A stretch of DNA of 64,000 nt. Origin: Methanoculleus sediminis. GTDB lineage: Archaea > Halobacteriota > Methanomicrobia > Methanomicrobiales > Methanoculleaceae. The stretch covers positions 25,801 through 89,800 of the forward strand of contig NZ_JXOJ01000002.1 of NCBI RefSeq assembly GCF_001017125.1, in the 5' to 3' direction. The translations under genes and the position numbers were made by a program. The notes under the pieces were generated by a model. It saw only the letters and a program-made list of their open reading frames with translations. It made no database searches and was not told the origin of the DNA. Positions 9,428 through 22,646 of this stretch are shown here, one piece after another; position 1 is the stretch's first letter, and every line of letters begins with the position of its first letter.

Positions 9428-10891
9428 ATGGCACCGATAGCCGCGCCTGATTTCCCCACCGATCTCGAGTGGCTCAACACCGACCATCCCCTCTCCGTCC
9501 GCGATCTCTCGGGCAGGATAGTGCTGCTCTCGTTTGCGACGTTCACCTGTTCGAACTGCATGCGGCTGGCACCGGAGATCCGGCGGCTCGAGGAGAAGCA
9601 TCCCGGGCTGGTGGTCGTCGAAGTGCATTACCCCGGGTTCGAATCCGCCGCAGTCGGCGGGAACTTCCGGGAGGCCGTGCGCCGCGCCGGGCTGGAGCAC
9701 CCTGTCGCCATCGACCGCAATCGCCTGCTCTGGCAGGCCTTCGGGATCCGGGAGTGGCCGACCTTCGTCCTCATCGACCCGGGAGGGAACGTGGTCGGGA
9801 AGACCGCCGCCGAAGGGCTTTACGGGAGGCTCAACCCGAAGATCGACCGGATGACGACGGAGTTCGGGCAGCGGGGCATGCTCGAGAGAGGACGGCTGTC
9901 GCCGGGAACCGCTCCGGAGACGGCACGGGAGACGAGCCTGCATCGTCCCGGCAAAGTCGCGGCGGACAACGTCGGGATGCGCCTCTTTATAAGCGATACC
10001 GGTCATCACCGGATCGTCGTCGCCGACTCCGACGGAAATATCCTGGAGACGCTCGGCTCCGGGGCTGCCGGAAACACCGACGGATCGTTCGATGAGGCCG
10101 CATTCTACCTGCCGGAGGGACTTATATTCGACGAAGAGGCGGGCGTCCTCTACGTTGCGGATACCGGGAACCACACGATCCGCCGTGTCTCCTTTACCGA
10201 GCGGGAGGTCGCGACGATCGCCGGGACAGGGCTTGCCGCGCCGTCATCCGGCGAAGGCGGACCGGGCACCGGAACCGCGCTGAACGCGCCGCGGGATCTC
10301 GCGCTGCTGGGCGGCCACCTCTACATCGCGATGGCAGGGGCAAACCAGATCTGGCGAATGGATCTCGCCACCCACGAGGTGGAGCCGTATGCCGGTTCCG
10401 GCCGGGAGGGGCTGGTCGACGGGCCGCTGGAGAAGGCCGCCTTCGCCGGCCCTACCGGCATCGTCACCGACGGCGAGGCGCTCTTTGTCGCCGACAGCGG
10501 GGCTTCGGCGATCCGCCGCATCAAGCGAGGAATGGTCGAGACCCGTATCGGGCACTCCCCCGACGATTTCGGCGATCTCGACACCATCGCCCGGATGGCG
10601 CGCATCCACCGGGCGACGGGCATCGCTTACAGGGACGGGTCGCTCTACATCGCCGACACCGGCAACCACAAGATCAAGCAGTTCGACCTGGAGACCGGGT
10701 GGGTTCTCACCCGGGCCGGAAACGGCGGCCGCGGCTACCGGGACGGGCTGTCGGGAGAAGCAAGGCTGAACGAGCCGGGCGGTCTGGCCGACTTCAGGGG
10801 ACTCTGGTATATCGCCGATACCGGCAACCATACCGTCAGGGTCTACGATCCCGCCCGGCACGTCGTCTCGACCCTGACGCTCTGGAAATAG
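9428..10891 (+). CDS. Thioredoxin-like/NHL-repeat protein (NHLRC2-like)
   Basis: A 487-residue protein. Residues 1-150 form a thioredoxin/AhpC-like fold with FATFTCSNCMRL, i.e. a CxxC redox pair. Residues 180-487 form a beta-propeller of about six NHL repeats, recognisable by FISDTGHHRI, YVADTGNHTI, YIADTGNHKI and YIADTGNHTV. This order matches NHLRC2-type proteins of bacteria and animals. There is no signal peptide, so it is probably cytoplasmic. The role is likely thiol-redox chemistry with the propeller as a binding or scaffold module; the precise function is unknown. Confidence 0.85.
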   Translation: MAPIAAPDFPTDLEWLNTDHPLSVRDLSGRIVLLSFATFTCSNCMRLAPEIRRLEEKHPGLVVVEVHYPGFESAAVGGNFREAVRRAGLEHPVAIDRNRLLWQAFGIREWPTFVLIDPGGNVVGKTAAEGLYGRLNPKIDRMTTEFGQRGMLERGRLSPGTAPETARETSLHRPGKVAADNVGMRLFISDTGHHRIVVADSDGNILETLGSGAAGNTDGSFDEAAFYLPEGLIFDEEAGVLYVADTGNHTIRRVSFTEREVATIAGTGLAAPSSGEGGPGTGTALNAPRDLALLGGHLYIAMAGANQIWRMDLATHEVEPYAGSGREGLVDGPLEKAAFAGPTGIVTDGEALFVADSGASAIRRIKRGMVETRIGHSPDDFGDLDTIARMARIHRATGIAYRDGSLYIADTGNHKIKQFDLETGWVLTRAGNGGRGYRDGLSGEARLNEPGGLADFRGLWYIADTGNHTVRVYDPARHVVSTLTLWK

Positions 10892-10988: not shown

Positions 10989-11594
10989 ATGCGAACGAAT
11001 TGCGCGCTGTTCATAACAGTTCTGGCTATCGGGGCGGCGGTTCTCATCTGCGGCTGCACGGGCCTGCCGGGAGGCGACGGCCAGAACCGGACGAACGGAA
11101 CACCTTCCGAAACGCCGGTCGGCGGGAGTCTGACGGCCGACGAGGTGCTGGCCCGGGACGGCAACTTCTCGGCGTTCCTCCACGCGCTCGATGCCGCCGG
11201 ACTCAAGGGGACGCTCGCCGGGCCGGGTCCCTACACCGTCTTTGCGCCGACGGACGAGGCATTTAGCCGGGTTCCGGAGACCATGATGGATGAACTCTTC
11301 GACGACCCGAAGGGCAACCTCGCGGAGACCCTGCTCTACCACATGGCTCCGGGGAGGTATACGTCGGCCGAAATCACCGCAAACGACACCGTTCCATCCA
11401 TCCAGGGCAATCCGATCGGCGTCGCCGCCGGCGGCGAGAGCGTGACGGTGGACGGTGCACGGGTGATCCGGGCAGATATTCCGGCCGCGAACGGCGTCAT
11501 CCACGCCATCGATGCGGTCATGATCCCGCCGGACGTGACCCTGTCGCCGACGAACGAGACCGCCGAAAACGTGACGGCGAACGCGACCGGGTGA
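10989..11594 (+). CDS. Fasciclin (FAS1) domain lipoprotein
   Basis: A 201-residue protein. The N-terminus is a signal peptide with a lipobox (LICGCTG, Cys at about 22), followed by a Gly/Asn/Thr linker and one FAS1 domain: GPYTVFAPTDEAFSRVP, then LLYHMAPGRYTSAEI and the C-terminal ANGVIHAIDAVMIPP. The C-terminal tail is rich in Thr and Asn. It should be anchored outside the membrane. It is the secreted member of a FAS1 family that has four leaderless relatives at 17945-20033. FAS1 domains usually mediate adhesion. Confidence 0.9.
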   Translation: MRTNCALFITVLAIGAAVLICGCTGLPGGDGQNRTNGTPSETPVGGSLTADEVLARDGNFSAFLHALDAAGLKGTLAGPGPYTVFAPTDEAFSRVPETMMDELFDDPKGNLAETLLYHMAPGRYTSAEITANDTVPSIQGNPIGVAAGGESVTVDGARVIRADIPAANGVIHAIDAVMIPPDVTLSPTNETAENVTANATG

Positions 11595-11872: not shown

Positions 11873-14800
11873 ATGCCACGCTTCAACCTCAGCCCGTCGC
11901 TCATCGGCCGGTTCTTCTACCACGACTGCGAACGCCATCTCCGCTACCACGCGACCCCGGAGCAGGAGCGTGCCGGAGCCGGCATCCCGGCGGCCGCGAT
12001 CGATACGAGCCCGGTGACGCGAGCCCTCCTTGATGCCGGCATCCGGTGGGAGGAGGAGGTGATCCGGACAAAACTCGCGGGCAGGGTGCGGCTCCCGGAC
12101 GGGGCGGGGCCGATCTCCGGGCGGTCGTTCTCCATCGAGGAGAGTTTCAACCTCCTCCCCCTGCTCTCCCCGGGCGAGGCAATCTACCAGACGACCATCC
12201 CCGTCTCGATCCACTTCCTGCAGATCTACGGTCTCGACCCCGAGGCGCACCGGTTCTCTCCCTGCCGTCCGGATCTCGTCAGGGTCGATGAAGAAGGACG
12301 CCTGCAGGTTATCGACATCAAGGCAAGCGAAGAACTCAGCGTCAGTCACCGGATCCAGGCGACGCTGTATGTCCTGATCCTCGAGCACGCCCTGGACCTG
12401 CTCGGGCTCAAACTCCCGGTCGACCGGAACCGGGCGGGGATCTGGCTCTACGGGGAGGATGAGCCGCAACCCTTCGATCTACACCTCAACATACGGGTGA
12501 TCGAGGACTTCTTCCGCCACCGCCTTCCGGGCATCCTCACCGCCCCGCCGGGGGACGTGCCCTGGCACCTCACCTCGCGGTGCGAGTCCTGCGAGTTCTA
12601 CCCCCACTGCCGCGCCGAGGCAGAGGCCTCCTCCTCGGTCTCGCAGATCCCCGGGCTCTCGCCCATCGGTCGGCGCTACCTGCGGGAGGCCCCGTGGGAC
12701 GGCGGGCTCTCGATCAACGCGCTCTCCGACCTCGCCGCGTTCCTCCGCGACCCGGAGAGCGATCGCTGCCTCGACAACTGCGGGTCGCTCGCCGGCCAGG
12801 GCGACCGCCTGCGCTCGACCGTCCGGGCGCTCACGACGGGAGAGATCATTCCGCTCGCCGCGGCCTCGCTCGCACTCCCTGTCTACGAGGATATCACCTT
12901 CATGCTGACGCTCCAGAAGGATCCCGTATCCGGCCGGATATACGCCCTCGGGTTCCGGCGGAGCAGGGGCAAAGCCGTCTACGGGACGCCCTCGCACGAA
13001 GCAATCTTCGTCGCGGCGAACCCCGGCGACTGCACCAGGGTGCGCCGGGAGTTCGTCCGGGCACTCGCCGCGGAACTCGAGGCCGTCGACGGGTACAACC
13101 GGGGCCGCGACTGGGCCGAACAGGAGTCGGTGCAGACCTACGTCTACGACACCTACGAGGAGGAACTTTTCACCCGGCTGCTCGAAGAGGCGCTCGACGA
13201 CCCCGTGAGCGCACAGGACGCTCTCAGGCTGCGGTTCTACTACCAGGATTCCGGCATCGCTCTCGGGTCGATCCACCCGAGCGCGTCCGTCCCCTTCCCG
13301 ATCGTCGTTCTTGCAAGGGAGATCCGGCGGCTGCTCGCGCTTCCCGTCCCGTTCACGCTCCGCCTGCCCGAAGTTCTCGCGGCAATCCCCTCCTCCCGGT
13401 TCGCGTACCGGCTTGATGCGGGTTCCCTCTTCTGGAACGAGCACGGCAACGCCATGAAGAGCGACGCCATCATCATGGCGTGGCACGGAAAACGGCCGGA
13501 GGCTGCAGACTGGGTCCGGCAGGAGGTCTCGCGCCGCCTGCTCGCCGCGGGGAGCGTCCTCGACGGGCTTCGCGAACGGACGAAGGATAGGCTCGTACGG
13601 TGGGCGGAGAAGTTCCGGTTCCCGGGCTCGTGGGAGGCCGCGACGCCGGAGATATCGCGCCTCCTCTTCATCGCGGAGTACGAGTCGACCATGGGTGTGC
13701 GCCGGGTGCAGGAACTGCGGAGCGGGCCGCGGGAGGCAAGGGTCCGGGACGGCGTCAGCATCCCCCTCAAGAAGAGCGAGGGGAATTTCTGGAGGGTGCT
13801 CGCTCCCCTGGATCTCGCGCTCTTCGAGCAGTCGCGGGCGTTCAGTCACCTCCTCGTGCCGGACGGCGAGGCGGGCGATGAGGCGGAGCGGGCGTTCGAC
13901 GACCTTCGCTACCGGAGCAGCCCGAACCCCGGGAACAGCGGGGTCTGCTTTGCGAGGGTCCGCGACACCATCGTCGACCGGACGGCCGGGGAGGTCAGGG
14001 GGCTCGTGCTGGAGGTGACCTACCCCCGGGACCACGCACCTTTTGCCGAGGGTGATCTCGCGATGCTGCATCCCCGGTTCACGGACTTCACCGTATCGCG
14101 CTACGTCGACCGTCTCCTCGCTCTCGACGGGCAGCCGGAGAACGCTTTCATCCGCCTCCTCCGCGACCCGCGGGGGTTCGCCGCGCCGATCCCCGAGCCC
14201 GGAGAGGTCGCCGCCGACGCCGGGCGACTCGCCCGCGATGCCGGGTTCACGAAAAGCCAGAACAGGGCATTTTCTCACGTGACGGAGAACCGCCTGACCC
14301 TGGTCTGGGGGCCGCCCGGCACCGGGAAGACGCATTTCCTCGCGACGGCGATCCTCGCGCTCGTCAGAGCCCGGCGGGCGCACGGGGAGCGGATCCGGGT
14401 GGGGGTTGCGGCGTTCACCCACGCGGCCGTCGAGAACCTTCTCGTCAAGGTCCAGGGCTCGGTCGACGCGTTCGGCCTTGCCGCCGGTCTTCCGATCTAC
14501 AAAGTGGGGGATCTCCGGACACCCGGCGCAGAGCGGAGCCTCGAGGTGCTGCCCCACGACCGGGCCGGGACCGTCGTCGGCTACCCGGCTCTCCTCCTCG
14601 GCGGGACGGTGCATGGTTTCGCAAAACTCGAGAAATCCCTCCCGTCCCTCGATCTCCTGATCGTCGACGAAGCGTCGCAGATGCGGGCGGCGGAACTCGC
14701 GATGGTGCTCCCGATGCTGGGGGAGGACGGACGGCTCGTCCTCGCGGGGGACGACCTCCAGCTCCCGCCGGTCGTCCAGGGGGCGTATCCGGCACCGGTT

Positions 14801-15652
14801 GACGGTCTCCCCGGGCTCGAGGACTCCGTCTTCGCCTACCTCCGGCACCGCGACGATCCCGGCCGCCCCGTCTACACCTGCCAGCTCCAGGAGAACTGGC
14901 GGATGAACCGCACCCTCTCGGAGTTCCCGGCGGAGACGCTCTACGGCGCCGGGTATGCTCCCGCGACCGACGCGATTGCAGCGCAGCAACTCGCCCTCGC
15001 CCCCGGTTCGGCGGGGGAGGAGTGGATGGAGTGGATCCTCGATCCGGCATACCCGCTCGTGCTCTGCGTCCTCGAGGGCGTCCGGACGACGGTGGAGAAC
15101 CGGGTCGAGGCGGCGCTGGTCGCCCGGCTGGCCGGGGCGCTCCGGGAGAGGGTCGTCGACCCCGGATCGGGAGAACGGTATCCGGCGACGGAAGACGGCG
15201 ATTACCGCTTCTGGCGGCACGGGCTCTTCATCGTCAGCCCGCACCACGCACAGATAGGCGCCATCAAAAACAGTCTCGCCAGCATGCGGGCCTGGAAGTA
15301 TCCGCCGTTCGTGGATACCGTCGACAAGATGCAGGGGCAGGAGGCGGAGGCGGTCGTCGTCAGTTACGGCGTGAGCGACGTCGAGACCGCTCTTGCCGAG
15401 GCCGAGTTCATCTACAGCAGGAACCGCCTGAACGTCTCGCTGACCCGGAGCCGGGCGAAGTGCGCGGTCTTCCTGCCACGGCCGCTCTTAGAACCGCCGC
15501 TTGAACTGGTGCAGAACGAGAAGGCGGCGGCGGGGCTCCGGCACATGCTCGACCTCCAGGAGTTCTGCAGGGCGCACGGCGATACGCGGACATTCGACCT
15601 CGACGGCGAGGAGGGCGTCCGGCTCACGGTGATGCGGGCGCGGGTGGAGTGA
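11873..15652 (+). CDS. Dna2-like fusion of PD-(D/E)XK nuclease and superfamily 1 helicase
   Basis: A 1259-residue protein. The N-terminal third is a RecB/Cas4-type nuclease: CRPDLVRV and VIDIKASEEL (residues about 133 and 147), then QATLYVLIL. An Fe-S cluster is suggested by one N-terminal Cys (HDCERH) plus CESCEFYPHC at about 236-245, the arrangement known from Dna2, AddB and Cas4. The C-terminal half is a UPF1-like helicase with GPPGTGKTHF (about 815), VDEASQMRAAEL (about 933) and NVSLTRSRAK near the end. The expected role is DNA end or flap processing. The family is often annotated as TM0106-like RecB nuclease/helicase. It is probably transcribed alone. Confidence 0.9.
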   Translation: MPRFNLSPSLIGRFFYHDCERHLRYHATPEQERAGAGIPAAAIDTSPVTRALLDAGIRWEEEVIRTKLAGRVRLPDGAGPISGRSFSIEESFNLLPLLSPGEAIYQTTIPVSIHFLQIYGLDPEAHRFSPCRPDLVRVDEEGRLQVIDIKASEELSVSHRIQATLYVLILEHALDLLGLKLPVDRNRAGIWLYGEDEPQPFDLHLNIRVIEDFFRHRLPGILTAPPGDVPWHLTSRCESCEFYPHCRAEAEASSSVSQIPGLSPIGRRYLREAPWDGGLSINALSDLAAFLRDPESDRCLDNCGSLAGQGDRLRSTVRALTTGEIIPLAAASLALPVYEDITFMLTLQKDPVSGRIYALGFRRSRGKAVYGTPSHEAIFVAANPGDCTRVRREFVRALAAELEAVDGYNRGRDWAEQESVQTYVYDTYEEELFTRLLEEALDDPVSAQDALRLRFYYQDSGIALGSIHPSASVPFPIVVLAREIRRLLALPVPFTLRLPEVLAAIPSSRFAYRLDAGSLFWNEHGNAMKSDAIIMAWHGKRPEAADWVRQEVSRRLLAAGSVLDGLRERTKDRLVRWAEKFRFPGSWEAATPEISRLLFIAEYESTMGVRRVQELRSGPREARVRDGVSIPLKKSEGNFWRVLAPLDLALFEQSRAFSHLLVPDGEAGDEAERAFDDLRYRSSPNPGNSGVCFARVRDTIVDRTAGEVRGLVLEVTYPRDHAPFAEGDLAMLHPRFTDFTVSRYVDRLLALDGQPENAFIRLLRDPRGFAAPIPEPGEVAADAGRLARDAGFTKSQNRAFSHVTENRLTLVWGPPGTGKTHFLATAILALVRARRAHGERIRVGVAAFTHAAVENLLVKVQGSVDAFGLAAGLPIYKVGDLRTPGAERSLEVLPHDRAGTVVGYPALLLGGTVHGFAKLEKSLPSLDLLIVDEASQMRAAELAMVLPMLGEDGRLVLAGDDLQLPPVVQGAYPAPVDGLPGLEDSVFAYLRHRDDPGRPVYTCQLQENWRMNRTLSEFPAETLYGAGYAPATDAIAAQQLALAPGSAGEEWMEWILDPAYPLVLCVLEGVRTTVENRVEAALVARLAGALRERVVDPGSGERYPATEDGDYRFWRHGLFIVSPHHAQIGAIKNSLASMRAWKYPPFVDTVDKMQGQEAEAVVVSYGVSDVETALAEAEFIYSRNRLNVSLTRSRAKCAVFLPRPLLEPPLELVQNEKAAAGLRHMLDLQEFCRAHGDTRTFDLDGEEGVRLTVMRARVE

Positions 15653-17944: not shown

Positions 17945-18370
17945 TCAGGGGGTGACGATCTCCAGCGTCGGCGGGACGAGCGCCGACGCTATCGCGTGGC
18001 AGATCCCGTTCGTGCAGAACGCGTCTGCCTCGACGATAGGGACACTGTTGACGGTGATTCCCCGATCGGACGAGCGTATGACAAGATCCGTCCCGAGGCT
18101 CGACCTGACCGCCGCGATGCTCCGGAGATCCTCCGAGGTCAACTGTCCCGGCACGACGTGGTAACTCGCGATGAGGAGGAGTTTGTCCGCGTCCTGCCGG
18201 ATCTCGTCCATCCGATCCGTGGGAACCCTTGAGAACGCCTCGTCCGTCGGGACAAAGACCGTGAACGGCCCTCTCTCGCGGAGCATCGGTTCCATGCCGG
18301 CAATCCGGACCAGATCGAGAAACACGCTGAGGTTCTCGGAGTCCTCCAGGGTTTCGATGATACTCTTCAT
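17945..18370 (-). CDS. Fasciclin (FAS1) domain protein, cytoplasmic type (array member 1)
   Basis: A 141-residue single FAS1 domain: MKSIIETLED, RERGPFTVFVPTDEAFSRVP, SYHVVPGQLTSEDL and CTNGICHAIASALVPPTLE. There is no signal peptide or membrane anchor, unlike most FAS1 proteins. The start at MKSI is chosen because two neighbouring paralogues start the same way and have GGGAG-type ribosome sites; a GTG nine bases upstream is possible. It is the most downstream of four tandem genes and has its own TATA box. Confidence 0.9.
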   Translation of the reverse strand: MKSIIETLEDSENLSVFLDLVRIAGMEPMLRERGPFTVFVPTDEAFSRVPTDRMDEIRQDADKLLLIASYHVVPGQLTSEDLRSIAAVRSSLGTDLVIRSSDRGITVNSVPIVEADAFCTNGICHAIASALVPPTLEIVTP

Positions 18371-18403
18371 TCTGCTCACTCCACGCGCACCACTAACCGT
18401 ACC

Positions 18404-18417
18404 GGATTATTTATACG
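18404..18417 (-). promoter_or_regulatory. TATA box of fasciclin array member 1
   Basis: On the minus strand the element reads GTATAAATAATCC, about 35-45 nt before the ATG at 18370. It lies in the short gap just upstream of the next paralogue's stop codon, so member 1 can be transcribed alone. Confidence 0.6.
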
Positions 18418-18423
18418 TTCCGG

Positions 18424-18855
18424 CTACCCGTGTGCGGCGATAGCCCTTGCAACGGGCGGGAGGAGCAGGGCGGAGACCGCGTGGCAGATCCCGTTGGTGC
18501 ACCACGCATCGGATTCCACGACCGCCACGTCGTTGACCAGCACCCCCTCCGGCGCAACCTCCACGGTCAGGTCATCGCCCTGGAGCGACCGGAGCGTCCG
18601 TATGCCGAGCAGATCGATCATGGAATGTACTCCGGGGACGATATGGTAGTTCAGGGTCTCGCCGAGCCGGTCGGCGTTCCGGCGAATCGCCTCGAGTTCT
18701 GACCGGGGGAGATCCCGGAACGCATCGTCGTCCGGGACGAAGAGCGTATACGGCCCTTCGGTGCTCAACCGCTCCTCCATGCCGGCCACCCATGCGAGGT
18801 CAAGAAACACGTCGAACGATCCCGATTCACGCAGAGTCGCGAGGATACTCTTCAT
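18424..18855 (-). CDS. Fasciclin (FAS1) domain protein, cytoplasmic type (array member 2)
   Basis: A 143-residue FAS1 domain: MKSILATLRESGSFDVFLDL, TEGPYTLFVPDDDAFRDLP, NYHIVPGVHSMIDLL and CTNGICHAVSALLLPP. Its closest relative in the window is array member 1, with which it shares the WCTNGICHA / FCTNGICHA end. There is no signal peptide. The start MKSIL at 18855 follows a GGGAG ribosome site. It is transcribed from its own TATA box at about 18892-18902. Confidence 0.9.
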   Translation of the reverse strand: MKSILATLRESGSFDVFLDLAWVAGMEERLSTEGPYTLFVPDDDAFRDLPRSELEAIRRNADRLGETLNYHIVPGVHSMIDLLGIRTLRSLQGDDLTVEVAPEGVLVNDVAVVESDAWCTNGICHAVSALLLPPVARAIAAHG

Positions 18856-18889
18856 GCGAACCAACTCCCGGCGGGAGATGGAGGGGCAT

Positions 18890-18906
18890 GAGTATATAAA
18901 ATTACG
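18890..18906 (-). promoter_or_regulatory. TATA box of fasciclin array member 2
   Basis: The minus strand reads CGTAATTTTATATACTC, a strong archaeal TATA element about 40 nt before the ATG. The CGTAATT lead-in also occurs in front of array member 3, so the promoter was probably duplicated with the gene. Confidence 0.65.
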
Positions 18907-18995
18907 TGTGGTTCCGCACGGCTTCGGGAGGCAGCACGGGGCCGGTTTCCGGCATCGCCCCGTTCCCGTCGCCAGAGATGCAGCCGGGCCCGAAC

Positions 18996-19424
18996 CTACC
19001 TCTTCACCCGCGCCTCGACCGCCCGCGGCAGGAGAACCCTGTCGATGACATGGTAGATGCCGTTCGTGCACTCGACGTCGGGCTGGATAACGCCGGCATC
19101 GTTCAGCCGTATCGCGGAAGGGGGGCCCGCGATATCCAGGTGATCCCCCTGCAGCGTCCTGATCGCCTCCATCCGTGAGAGCTCGTGCGTGGTGAGTTTG
19201 CCCTGGATCACGTGATACATGATCATCTCCGTGAGCCGATCCCGGTCGGCCGTGATAGCATCCAGCACCTCCCGGGAAAAATTGGAGTACGCCTCATTCG
19301 TCGGGAACAGTGCCGTATACTCTCCCCCACCCCGGAGCGTCTCCGCCATCCCTCCGGTCTGCAGCATCGCAACGGAGGTGCTCAACCGGTCGTCTTCCCG
19401 GGCCGTCTCAAAGATACTCTTCAT
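18996..19424 (-). CDS. Fasciclin (FAS1) domain protein, cytoplasmic type (array member 3)
   Basis: A 142-residue FAS1 domain: MKSIFETAREDDRLSTSVAM, GGGEYTALFPTNEAYSNFS, MYHVIQGKLTTHELSRM and CTNGIYHVIDRVLLP. It is more divergent than members 1 and 2. No signal peptide. The start follows GGGAGTTACCC. The promoter is a TATATATAATT element at 19451-19461. Confidence 0.88.
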   Translation of the reverse strand: MKSIFETAREDDRLSTSVAMLQTGGMAETLRGGGEYTALFPTNEAYSNFSREVLDAITADRDRLTEMIMYHVIQGKLTTHELSRMEAIRTLQGDHLDIAGPPSAIRLNDAGVIQPDVECTNGIYHVIDRVLLPRAVEARVKR

Positions 19425-19449
19425 GGGTAACTCCCAGGATCATCTGGCT

Positions 19450-19466
19450 AAATATATATAATTACG
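19450..19466 (-). promoter_or_regulatory. TATA box of fasciclin array member 3
   Basis: The minus strand reads CGTAATTATATATATTT. It shares the CGTAATT-TATATA arrangement with the promoter of array member 2 and lies about 30-40 nt before the ATG at 19424. Confidence 0.65.
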
Positions 19467-19586
19467 GCAATGGTTGCGCGGGCCCGGGGAGAGGGCGTCA
19501 GGCGTGAGGAGCGCCGTATCCTGCCGCCGTCTTCTGCCGGGAAAAAGAAAAGGGTTTCCGGCCGGACGAGGCACTCCGGCCCGGGT

Positions 19587-20033
19587 TCAAACGTTCGTCG
19601 ACAGGTAGGCCTGTTCGGCCTGCGCAAGCGTCGCAAAGGGAACGCTGTCGAGGGCATGGATGATGCCGTTCTCCACCTCGATGTCTCCCTCAAGCACGAC
19701 GGCCTCGTCCACCTGCGTGCCCCGGTCGGTATTCCTGACCATGATGGTATTCCCTTCGACGGTCTGCACGACGTTCTTTGAGAGGAGCGATTCAAGCGTG
19801 CATTTATGATTGCCGATCGTGAAGAAGTCGATCAGGTGCGAGAGCATCTGCTTGTCGTTCAAGATCATCGACCGGTTCGGCTCGGGGATCGCATCCCATG
19901 CCGAGTCGACCGGAGCAAAGAACGTCATCGGCCCTTCGCCCTGCAGCATCTCCTCTTCACCGACGGTCCGGATGATCTCGACGAGCCGGCCGAACCTGCT
20001 GTCGTTCTGCAACATATCAAAGATCTTCACCAT
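19587..20033 (-). CDS. Fasciclin (FAS1) domain protein, cytoplasmic type (array member 4)
   Basis: A 148-residue FAS1 domain, the most divergent of the array: MVKIFDMLQNDSRFGRLVEI, GEGPMTFFAPVDSAWDAIP, LIDFFTIGNHKCTLESLLSK and VENGIIHALDSVPFATL. The usual YHV segment reads FFTIGNHK instead. No signal peptide. The start MVKIF is chosen over a longer frame because of the GGGAGG ribosome site upstream; a TATATA element lies at about 20072-20079. Confidence 0.88.
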   Translation of the reverse strand: MVKIFDMLQNDSRFGRLVEIIRTVGEEEMLQGEGPMTFFAPVDSAWDAIPEPNRSMILNDKQMLSHLIDFFTIGNHKCTLESLLSKNVVQTVEGNTIMVRNTDRGTQVDEAVVLEGDIEVENGIIHALDSVPFATLAQAEQAYLSTNV

Positions 20034-20069: not shown

Positions 20070-20082
20070 TCTCATATATAGG
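20070..20082 (-). promoter_or_regulatory. TATA box of fasciclin array member 4
   Basis: CTATATATGAG on the minus strand, about 40 nt before the ATG at 20033. A second AT-rich element (ATAATAATCC) lies just upstream. Confidence 0.55.
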
Positions 20083-20156
20083 GATTATTATATGCAGAAA
20101 AATATAGTGGCACAGAGATACGCGCCTCCCGCGAAGACCGGGCAGCAAAAAGGCCG

Positions 20157-20732
20157 TCACTCGCGAAGCCGGTCGGCGATATACCCCTCGAGGAGTTCGA
20201 GCGCCTCCCACTCCCGGGCGCCGCCGCACTTCCGGGCGAGAGCGGTGTGGTGCTCGATCAGCCGCCCGAGCCATGGGTCGCGGTTCCTGACGTAGCGGGT
20301 GGCATGGACGGTGGCGTCCACGATGCTCGCAAAGCCCCGGTTCACCGGGTGCAGCCGGAGATCCAGCACCTCCTCTTTTAAGGGGCTGAGCCGCACGACG
20401 ATCGACTCGTCGCCCGAGCGCTCCACGTCGGCGGCAAACGCGGCCCAGGCCTCCGCGTCGCGAAGGCGGAAGACGGCCGTCCCGTCGATCACTTCGGAGA
20501 CGAAGGCGTCCATTGGAAGGTCGTCGAACGCGGTTTTGACGTAGATCACGGGATCGAAGACGAAGTTCGCCACCACCCGGTGGTCCCGGGCGATGTTTTT
20601 GGCGGTGTGGCTTCCCCGGAACAGAACCATGTGCAGGGAGCCGTTCCGGTTGATGATCCCCATGGGAGCGGCGTTGTGGTCGGTGGTCGCGATCACCTCG
20701 TTGATCCCCTCGGTCAGCAGTCCCACTGCCAT
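20157..20732 (-). CDS. DUF447 family protein
   Basis: A 191-residue protein of the DUF447 type: LLTEGINEVIATTDHNAAPM, LHMVLFRGSHTAKNI, VANFVFDPVIYVKTAFDDLP and a C-terminal HHTALARKCGG helix. The fold of this family resembles flavin-reductase split barrels. It overlaps the CitG-like gene upstream by 19 bp, so translation is coupled. Co-occurrence with CitG-like genes in methanogens and methylotrophs hints at C1-carrier cofactor metabolism; that is inference. Confidence 0.8.
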   Translation of the reverse strand: MAVGLLTEGINEVIATTDHNAAPMGIINRNGSLHMVLFRGSHTAKNIARDHRVVANFVFDPVIYVKTAFDDLPMDAFVSEVIDGTAVFRLRDAEAWAAFAADVERSGDESIVVRLSPLKEEVLDLRLHPVNRGFASIVDATVHATRYVRNRDPWLGRLIEHHTALARKCGGAREWEALELLEGYIADRLRE

Positions 20733-21520
20733 CCCTCCCCGAGCGCCACGTATATCCCGGCGATGGTGATGTCGGCGATCGAGCCCGGGTTGATCCCGGC
20801 GGAGACGCACTCGGCATCGAAGGCGGCAAGGTCGCGCCTCCCGTCGATCACCTCCGCCGCAGACCGCATCGTCTCCTCCGCTGTCTCCATCCCGTGCTTC
20901 TTCGCGATGAAGGTGTCCGGCACCGACGCGAGGAGGTCGAGGAACGCTGCGGCGATCGACGCCCTGCCGCACCCGTGCGCATGAAGCAGGTCGGCGCACC
21001 GGCGGGTCAGGGCAAATCCGTTCGTCCACTCCGCTGCGACCATGTCCCGGGGCGCCGAGTAGGCCATGATGTCGGCAAGCGTCATCCCCCGCTCCCGGAT
21101 GGCGGCGACCGAGGCCGGGTCGTTCACGTCCAGGTCGTCGCTCTCCGCCATCCGGACGCTCGTGAGGCCGAACGCCGCGTAGAACTCGACTGCGTCCTCG
21201 ACGTCGGTTGCGGCGACGATCCGCCGCGCCCCGTCGATATCTCCCCCGAGGACGAGGGGGATGAGGAGGATGAACGCTCCGAAATGGGTATTTCCCCCGG
21301 AATGGCCGTTCGTGCGCATGACCGCCTCCCGGATAAGGTTCCCGACACGGCCGCCGGTCTTCTCGGCCGCATCGAAGACAGGACGGGCGAGGAACGCCGA
21401 GGCAAGGAAATGCTCGAGACGGGTGTCCGGATAGTCGTGGCACCTGTCCACGTTCCCGGGTTTCGGGTAGGCGCAGACCTCCAGCATCATCGCCATCTGC
21501 GCACGTTCAGCTCGATTCAT
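20714..21520 (-). CDS. Triphosphoribosyl-dephospho-CoA synthase (CitG) family protein
   Basis: A 268-residue all-helical protein with CitG-family motifs: EVCAYPKPGNVDRCHDY near the N-terminus, GGRVGNLIREAV, GHSGGNTHFGAFILLIPLV (residues about 77-95), DTFIAKKHG, and a C-terminal INPGSIADITIAGIYVAL. CitG joins ATP and dephospho-CoA in bacteria; archaeal relatives lack citrate lyase, so the real substrate is unknown. The start MNRAERAQ overlaps the marker 9 stop by 14 bp; another ATG 18 bp upstream is possible. Confidence 0.8.
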   Translation of the reverse strand: MNRAERAQMAMMLEVCAYPKPGNVDRCHDYPDTRLEHFLASAFLARPVFDAAEKTGGRVGNLIREAVMRTNGHSGGNTHFGAFILLIPLVLGGDIDGARRIVAATDVEDAVEFYAAFGLTSVRMAESDDLDVNDPASVAAIRERGMTLADIMAYSAPRDMVAAEWTNGFALTRRCADLLHAHGCGRASIAAAFLDLLASVPDTFIAKKHGMETAEETMRSAAEVIDGRRDLAAFDAECVSAGINPGSIADITIAGIYVALGEGWQWDC

Positions 21521-22646
21521 CGGCAGGTTCTTCTTCATCGAATATCCTGTGCATGATCTTTTCAGCGAGGTGGTGCTTGCACCGCATGTACTCCCGCGCA
21601 GAGAGGCCCTTCTTCTCAAGCGTCATGTTGCGGAACATGCAGGGAGAACTGATCTTGCAGCACCAGGCGAGGCTCCCGAAACAGGTGCTCTTCCCGTCTT
21701 CGAGCGGGGTTCCCTTCACCGCCTCCTGTTTGAACTTCAGGTAGTCGTCGCGGGAGAGGCCGACCTTATCGAGGGCCGGGAGGAGCGGGCAGGCCTTCAC
21801 CGGCATGCAGCAGAAAGTGAGCGCCCTGATATCGCCGCCGCGGCAGAGCTGCTTCGGGGCGTTGTACCAGCCGCCCTCTTCTGCCGACCGGGTGATGGCG
21901 GCATCGAGGCCCGCGAGCGTCCAGGTGTCGGACTGCCGGGCAAGCGAGACGAGGTCCGCCCCGTGGGAGAAGGCGTCCATCGCTTTTTCGAAGGTGGTGA
22001 TGGAGTTGTTCGCGATCAGCGTCAAAGGGGAGGCGTTGCGGATCTGGCGGACCTTGTTGTGCCCGAAGTCCATCAGGTCGACGTGGAGGATATCCGCCCC
22101 CGCCTTCCAGACGGTGCGGGCGAGAACTGCGTCGTCGGCGGCGACACCGGCCCGGATCTTCACCGAGACGGTCACGTCCTCGGCCTTCAGCGCCCGGACG
22201 ATCTCGACGAGTTTCGCCGGGTGCCGGAGGAGATGCTCGCCGCATCCGGCCTCAAGCATCGCCGGCTGCCTGCAGTGGGCGTCGATCTCGTAGACCACGG
22301 CGTCCTCGAACGCCCGGGCGACCCCGGCGTAGGAGGCGGGCGTGCTCCCGCGGAGGTTGAGGCCCGTAACGACGTCGCTCTGTTTCAGGGCTTCAACCTC
22401 GCGGCCCAGCGCTTCGATGGGGTCGTCGTACAAAAACTCTTTGCGACCCTCCTCTGCCATCCGCCGGCTTGCCTCGAGGGTGGGGGCGTCGATCGAGTAG
22501 CCCCCGATGAACGCTGCCCCGACATGGTCGGCCCGCTCAAGAACGTATGCCGCATCCACGATCCCGGCCATGGATGCTATTGCCACCGGTGTTTTCACGA
22601 TCCGATCGTTTATGAGGAGCTCAAAACGATCATATGCTTCCATCAT
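21507..22646 (-). CDS. Methanogenesis marker protein 9 (DUS-like TIM barrel with Cys-rich C-terminus)
   Basis: A 379-residue protein. Residues 1-250 resemble the dihydrouridine synthase barrel (VVTGLNLRGSTPASYAG, VSVKIRAGVAADDAVLA, ADILHVDLMDFGHNKV). The C-terminal part is Cys-rich: LTFCCMPVKACPLL, STCFGSLAWCCKISSPCMF and MRCKHHL, suggesting bound metal or Fe-S. This architecture is that of the methanogenesis marker 9 family, found essentially only in methanogens; its reaction is not established. ATG at 22646 overlaps the nuclease stop in an ATGA arrangement. Confidence 0.85.
   Translation of the reverse strand: MMEAYDRFELLINDRIVKTPVAIASMAGIVDAAYVLERADHVGAAFIGGYSIDAPTLEASRRMAEEGRKEFLYDDPIEALGREVEALKQSDVVTGLNLRGSTPASYAGVARAFEDAVVYEIDAHCRQPAMLEAGCGEHLLRHPAKLVEIVRALKAEDVTVSVKIRAGVAADDAVLARTVWKAGADILHVDLMDFGHNKVRQIRNASPLTLIANNSITTFEKAMDAFSHGADLVSLARQSDTWTLAGLDAAITRSAEEGGWYNAPKQLCRGGDIRALTFCCMPVKACPLLPALDKVGLSRDDYLKFKQEAVKGTPLEDGKSTCFGSLAWCCKISSPCMFRNMTLEKKGLSAREYMRCKHHLAEKIMHRIFDEEEPADESS

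Follow-up and report, generated by a model that had tools for sequence, protein, structure and literature searches.

FAS1 (fasciclin) domains are mostly regarded as surface adhesion modules, and in a passage of one paper FAS1 proteins are treated as mediators between the cell exterior and the cell surface (PMC6032426). What, then, could be the role of four FAS1 genes that stand in tandem in the genome of Methanoculleus sediminis and encode proteins without an export leader? We analyzed a 64,000-nucleotide stretch of this genome (the window), in which the four genes occupy positions 17945-20033, all on the minus strand, and followed them through the genus and among more distant relatives.

Gene structure and leaders of the fasA-fasD array

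We named the genes in order of transcription, from fasA (first) to fasD (last). All four are complete, intact reading frames of 141-148 codons that encode a single FAS1 domain and lack a leader. The divergent member is fasA (19587-20033, minus strand, 148 residues); fasB (18996-19424, minus strand, 142 residues) carries the motif CTNGIYH, and both fasC (18424-18855, minus strand, 143 residues, with the cysteine pair C119 and C124) and fasD (17945-18370, minus strand, 141 residues) carry CTNGICH. For fasD we prefer ATG 18370 as the start, since its orthologues open with MK[SN]I at that point, with GTG 18379 as a possible alternative. Intergenic gaps measure 162 bp (fasA-fasB), 140 bp (fasB-fasC), and 53 bp (fasC-fasD). 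Each protein matched the Pfam Fasciclin profile (PF02469) at 77-102 bits (cut-off 22) over nearly its whole length, and in every case the match began at residue 13-14.

A profile search of the source genome (2.49 Mb, completeness 99.97) returned nine PF02469 matches, of which four were the leaderless fasA-D and five fell in four leader-bearing genes, one of them contributing two matches. These leader-bearing genes are a lipoprotein gene at 10989 of the window, with a signal peptide and a lipobox-like cysteine as judged by eye, and genes at two other loci (L072 and L073). The Pfam match of the leader-bearing gene at L072 (4769-5599) is in two pieces, which suggests an insert inside its FAS1 domain. 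The lipoprotein gene is adjoined by a gene for a thioredoxin-like and NHL-repeat protein (9428-10891), and this pair is kept in many of the genus loci that reach that far.

Unlike the product of the gene at 10989, FasA-D have no leader and no hydrophobic segment ahead of the domain; "leaderless" here denotes the outcome of a hydropathy rule, applied without a trained signal-peptide predictor. This rule, combined with promoter spacing, found no signal peptide or lipobox in any of the four proteins. Across the genus, the distance from the first base of the TATA-type element to the fasA-D start codon is about 35-75 bp, which, given ordinary archaeal TATA-to-start spacing, leaves no room for a signal peptide. 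We also considered signal peptides encoded from alternative upstream starts and rejected them, as the possible extensions were short or non-hydrophobic and the TATA element lay close. One genus row that scored as leader-bearing with both cysteines (L043) proved to be an artefact of the open frame upstream of fasC, and the tree described below contains a fasA row (L064_4160) that was assigned a leader in the same way. The sequences thus give good support to a cytosolic location of FasA-D, and hence to a role other than surface adhesion. An earlier note on this DNA had described four FAS1 genes in one direction without signal peptides, and its description was borne out by the reading frames, the Pfam matches, and inspection of the leaders. 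It had offered either a role away from surface adhesion or a non-classical export route; the former agrees with the lack of leaders, and we found nothing that supports the latter.

Promoters of the four genes

Each gene was thought to have its own TATA box, two of them within a common element, and both points held when we compared the genus, where a TATA-type element is kept upstream of each start. The promoter cores of fasB (CGTAATTATATATA, 19453-19466, minus strand) and fasC (CGTAATTTTATATA, 18893-18906, minus strand) are exact copies of the shared element. The fasD promoter has the TATA box TATAAATA within ACGTATAAATAATCC (18408-18415, minus strand), and the fasA promoter region (20073-20092, minus strand) consists of TATAATAATCC followed by TATATA, either of which may be the TATA box; both promoters are kept in the genus.

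As an exact match, the shared core is specific to the array. With up to two mismatches allowed, 0.07 matches would be expected in the window, and none of 100 shuffled sequences contained two. The whole 2.49 Mb genome held two exact matches to CGTAATTNTATATA, those at fasB and fasC, plus one with a single mismatch, and a reversed control pattern gave three matches at up to one mismatch, none of them exact. Across 35 genus genomes we counted 25 exact matches to CGTAATTNTATATA in 20 genomes, compared with 8 for the reversed control, and each of the 25 preceded a fasB or fasC start by no more than 60 bp. Allowing up to two mismatches, and dropping rows without an assigned Met start, the core was present in 27 of 29 fasB rows and 18 of 26 fasC rows; under the same rules ACGTATAAATAA preceded fasD in 24 of 26 rows and TATAATAATCC preceded fasA in 25 of 27. 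Some of the genomes without the core at fasC have no gap between fasB and the fasC start, or have the two overlapping, so that a single transcript may cover both genes there. Inspection by eye of the arrays of the sister genus did not reveal the fasB/fasC core.

We considered whether an alternative TFB might account for the shared promoter. This is unlikely, because one TFB gene was found in the genome (two repeats in one 338-residue frame). The coding sequence of fasC groups with fasD, but its promoter is of the fasB type, and therefore shared regulation is likelier than simple co-duplication; fasB and fasC are probably co-regulated. An element whose exact copies are confined to these two genes is a clean entry point for studying how Methanoculleus regulates its genes.

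Conservation of the array and of a cysteine hairpin

In order to see how general the array is, we searched 35 genomes of the genus (G000 and G002-G035), a count that the earlier note had proposed. All four genes were present in the order A-B-C-D in 26 of them, among which we include G025, although its fasB carries a stop (L061 4903-5361, where an in-frame stop splits fasB and fasA, fasC, and fasD alongside are open). The expansion had been called unusual. That was only partly borne out: most genomes of the genus have the array, other Methanomicrobiales and Halobacteriota as well as cyanobacteria also carry leaderless FAS1 genes, and structures have been solved for some FAS1 proteins that work inside cells.

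A DUF447 gene is next upstream of the array in 25 of the 26 four-gene genomes, and UvdE is next downstream in 23, the other three loci (L051, L053, and L066) having a MutY-like gene there without UvdE. In the window, the DUF447 gene belongs to a conserved run with CitG-like and Dus-like genes (20157-22646) in which the longest open frames overlap at both junctions; the Dus-like gene presumably resembles methanogenesis marker 9. Partial arrays were seen as A-B-C in G014 and G023, A-B-D in G022, and B-C plus a piece of D in G034, and some incomplete loci end at contig edges (G014 and G034 for certain). G020 had no FAS1 match, and in G029 an additional, fifth FAS1 gene without a leader stands between A and B. 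At the same site the sister genus has eight FAS1 genes in one genome (G036) and five in another (G037). In four genomes (G012, G021, G024, and G031) fasB is alone at the locus, and in G012 (completeness 99) the FasB orthologue is the sole FAS1 match of the genome. It follows that the role of FasB needs no other FAS1 protein, and FasB is likely the core member of the set.

A FasD query against named genome contigs found 24 loci: 21 belonged to Methanoculleus species or to metagenome-assembled genomes labelled Methanomicrobiales, Methanomicrobiaceae, or Euryarchaeota, and the remaining three were bacterial, at 31-37% identity. The best match was 95% identical, and that of M. chikugoensis 94%. 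We built a tree of 159 rows and 140 columns by a quick search with SH-aLRT support only, with the cysteine columns included. The A, B, C, and D orthologues formed separate clades (SH-aLRT 100, 98, 98, and 97, respectively), and the FasA clade took in two sister-genus rows. FasC and FasD fell together in a 13-row clade (SH-aLRT 96) with two further rows of the sister genus plus L058, which by identity are nearest to FasD (60-66%). The deep forks of this tree are weak. All four genes are under purifying selection, with dN/dS against seven genomes of 0.20-0.49 for fasA, 0.19-0.39 for fasB, 0.23-0.40 for fasC, and 0.08-0.14, the lowest of the four, for fasD.

The set has a cysteine signature in the H2 hairpin, beside the conserved FAS1 histidine, which reads CTNGICH in FasC and FasD and CTNG[IM]YH in FasB. 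Counted with G009 and G022 left out, FasD orthologues had CTNG[IV]CH in 25 of 25 cases, each with exactly two cysteines. FasC orthologues had CTNG[IL]CH in 26 of 28 (no motif was found in 2), with two cysteines in 25 and three or four in 3, and FasB orthologues had CTNG[IM]YH in 27 of 29 (again none found in 2), with one cysteine in all 29. None of 27 FasA orthologues has a cysteine at the hairpin site, and 24 of them have one cysteine elsewhere. The Tyr-His motif was at its expected place in 27/29 FasB, 24/25 FasD, and at least 24/28 FasC proteins; it is absent from FasA, where IDFFT replaces it in 25 of 27 orthologues and variants do so in the other 2.

Of the 13 leaderless proteins at the sister loci (L056-L058), 4 had both cysteines, 4 had just the first, 2 had just the second, and 3 had neither, so the first cysteine (8/13) is not universal there. 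The 24 leaderless proteins from other Halobacteriota comprised 10 with both cysteines, 9 with the first only, 1 with the second only, 2 with neither, and 2 in which no motif was found, one a short fragment and one cut by the locus edge. Their leader-bearing counterparts were different: of 48 domains, none had both cysteines, 6 had the first, 37 had neither, and in 5 no motif was found. The first cysteine was thus present in 19/24 leaderless proteins versus 6/48 leader-bearing domains, in a survey biased toward best matches to our alignment and with 9 further cases unclear. We also looked at 42 bacterial FAS1 proteins, picked as best matches, among which the 24 leaderless ones were all encoded by cyanobacteria or cyanobacterial plasmids and lacked a hairpin cysteine without exception. 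A cytosolic location therefore does not in itself call for the cysteine, which instead marks an archaeal group.

We considered whether the cysteine had been gained independently along with loss of the leader, and the tree did not bear this out. The cysteine state changed at least 13 times and the leader state 6 times, and an ancestry-corrected sign test, with only 3 starred independent pairs, found no significant association between cysteine and leaderlessness.

Predicted fold and candidate functions

To relate FasA-D to known systems, we modeled FasC and FasA and searched the PDB with the FasC model. The FasC model (mean pLDDT 89.7, pTM 0.85) matches FAS1 structures, and the FasA model (pLDDT 85.1) has its elements in the same order. 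In the FasC model C119 ends the strand 110-119 and C124 lies within the strand 122-127; given the short NG turn between them, the two residues should be cross-strand neighbors. Foldseek ranked human TGFBI first (TM 0.86, its FAS1-4 domain), followed by LRC6 (0.82), periostin, Rhodobacter FAS1, CupS (0.79), and AstaPo1 (0.76). By structure and by sequence alike, domains of TGFBI and periostin, two extracellular human proteins, gave the best PDB matches and outranked LRC6 and CupS, and therefore structure alone points to no intracellular role. TGFBI, MPT70, Rhodobacter Fdp, and the gene at 10989 share the domain family of FasA-D, and FAS1 proteins of the TGFBI, MPT70, and Rhodobacter Fdp type are secreted.

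Two intracellular systems offer parallels. CupS, a component of cyanobacterial NDH-1MS (PDB 2mxa and 6tjv), is like FasA-D a leaderless single FAS1 domain, aligned from chain residue 1, and its chain in the complex (6tjv_Q) superposed on the FasC model at TM 0.79 and 1.3 Å over 119 columns. The model is nearer to this complexed form than to free CupS (7.3 Å over 129 columns). According to part of a published account, CupS caps CupA, and its helical lid shuts onto the β-sheet upon binding (PMC6981117). The tree shows no orthology between CupS and the array proteins: its leaderless proteins from cyanobacteria group apart from FasA-D (CupS itself has no row, and the deep forks are weak), and all 24 of those examined lack the hairpin cysteines of FasB-D. 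LRC6 and LR9 of red-algal phycobilisomes also have the FAS1 fold and sit within an intracellular complex, and LRC6 (7ezx_4P) matched the FasC model at TM 0.82, 2.4 Å rmsd, and E 1e-11; unlike FasA-D, they are longer chains (253-362 residues) in a plastid assembly.

The intracellular FAS1 proteins of known structure discussed here act as caps or linkers within large complexes, and for that reason we favor a docking or capping mode. FasA-D may be diverged cytosolic modules that work as CupS does, with a thiol site in FasB-D, a reading that we consider plausible but short of probable. By analogy with CupS on CupA in NDH-1MS, the FAS1 fold would act as a docking module or lid on a partner protein or complex. 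The H2 hairpin of FasB-D holds one or two thiols beside the conserved histidine. In FasC and FasD the two cysteines, predicted to lie opposite one another in the hairpin, might pair in a reversible disulfide or coordinate a metal, so that docking might respond to redox state or metal. In a broader and more doubtful form, methanogens would possess a distinct intracellular FAS1 subfamily whose H2 hairpin (C[ST]NG[IV]CH) serves as a thiol-based switch or binds a metal; its four-member Methanoculleus set, with two genes under a private promoter element, would adjust docking to a complex of energy metabolism or of the envelope according to redox state.

FasA-D could instead be plain tandem duplicates that ordinary purifying selection maintains, their cysteines having no particular chemistry and, like the promoter element, coming down from founder genes. 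The expansion and contraction of the array, from fasB alone to the eight genes of G036, fits this, as do the changes in cysteine state on the tree (at least 13) and the cysteine-leader link, which is not significant once ancestry is taken into account. Yet fasB and fasC retain the promoter core though the coding sequence of fasC groups with fasD, and the number and position of cysteines are almost invariant within FasB, FasC, and FasD; we rate simple duplication as rather unlikely. A role as carriers of small ligands, with lid and sheet enclosing a hydrophobic molecule and each paralogue preferring its own, we regard as unlikely. Its model is the larger, carotenoid-binding AstaP, whose FAS1 domain binds its ligand under the lid according to part of one report (PMC10147662), and the FasC model shares this fold; however, at 21% identity to AstaPo1 the comparison is one of folds, and ligand binding leaves the cysteine hairpin unexplained.

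Least probable, in our judgment, is that these are surface or matrix proteins that leave the cell by a non-classical route and serve adhesion or aggregation. Such a role would suit the FAS1 lipoprotein gene 6 kb away, syntenic in many genus loci, and two published observations: unannotated fasciclin-similar genes of 'Ca. Methanoculleus ammoniitolerans' were up-regulated under shaking and stirring, in a passage that leaves the genes unspecified (PMC12008871), and a Methanosaeta concilii Fasciclin domain protein was present in granule EPS (PMC6367495). Against it stand the absence of a leader or hydrophobic pre-domain segment, the retention in FasB-D of thiols that leader-bearing relatives seldom have, and the presence of FasB in G012 without any other FAS1 match.

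Passages of three digester papers (PMC12008871, PMC6367495, and PMC7661554) read fasciclin proteins as adhesion factors. If FasA-D do represent a conserved cytosolic subfamily with a near-invariant cysteine hairpin, such readings can be wrong. Intracellular FAS1 proteins as such were already known from CupS and LRC6, and the new point is the cysteine signature in the hairpin, a short, testable motif. Our literature search, with most subscription journals outside its coverage, found no paper describing the array or the motif.

Among the open reading frames around leaderless FAS1 genes of other families, no shared functional neighbor was seen by eye, which counts against the docking reading; the neighbors included genes that we take to be STAS-like, RibB-like, and ABC-transporter-like. 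In the window itself, the interval between the FAS1 lipoprotein gene and the array encodes a 1259-residue protein (11873-15652) with a PD-(D/E)XK nuclease match followed by AAA/UvrD-type helicase matches.
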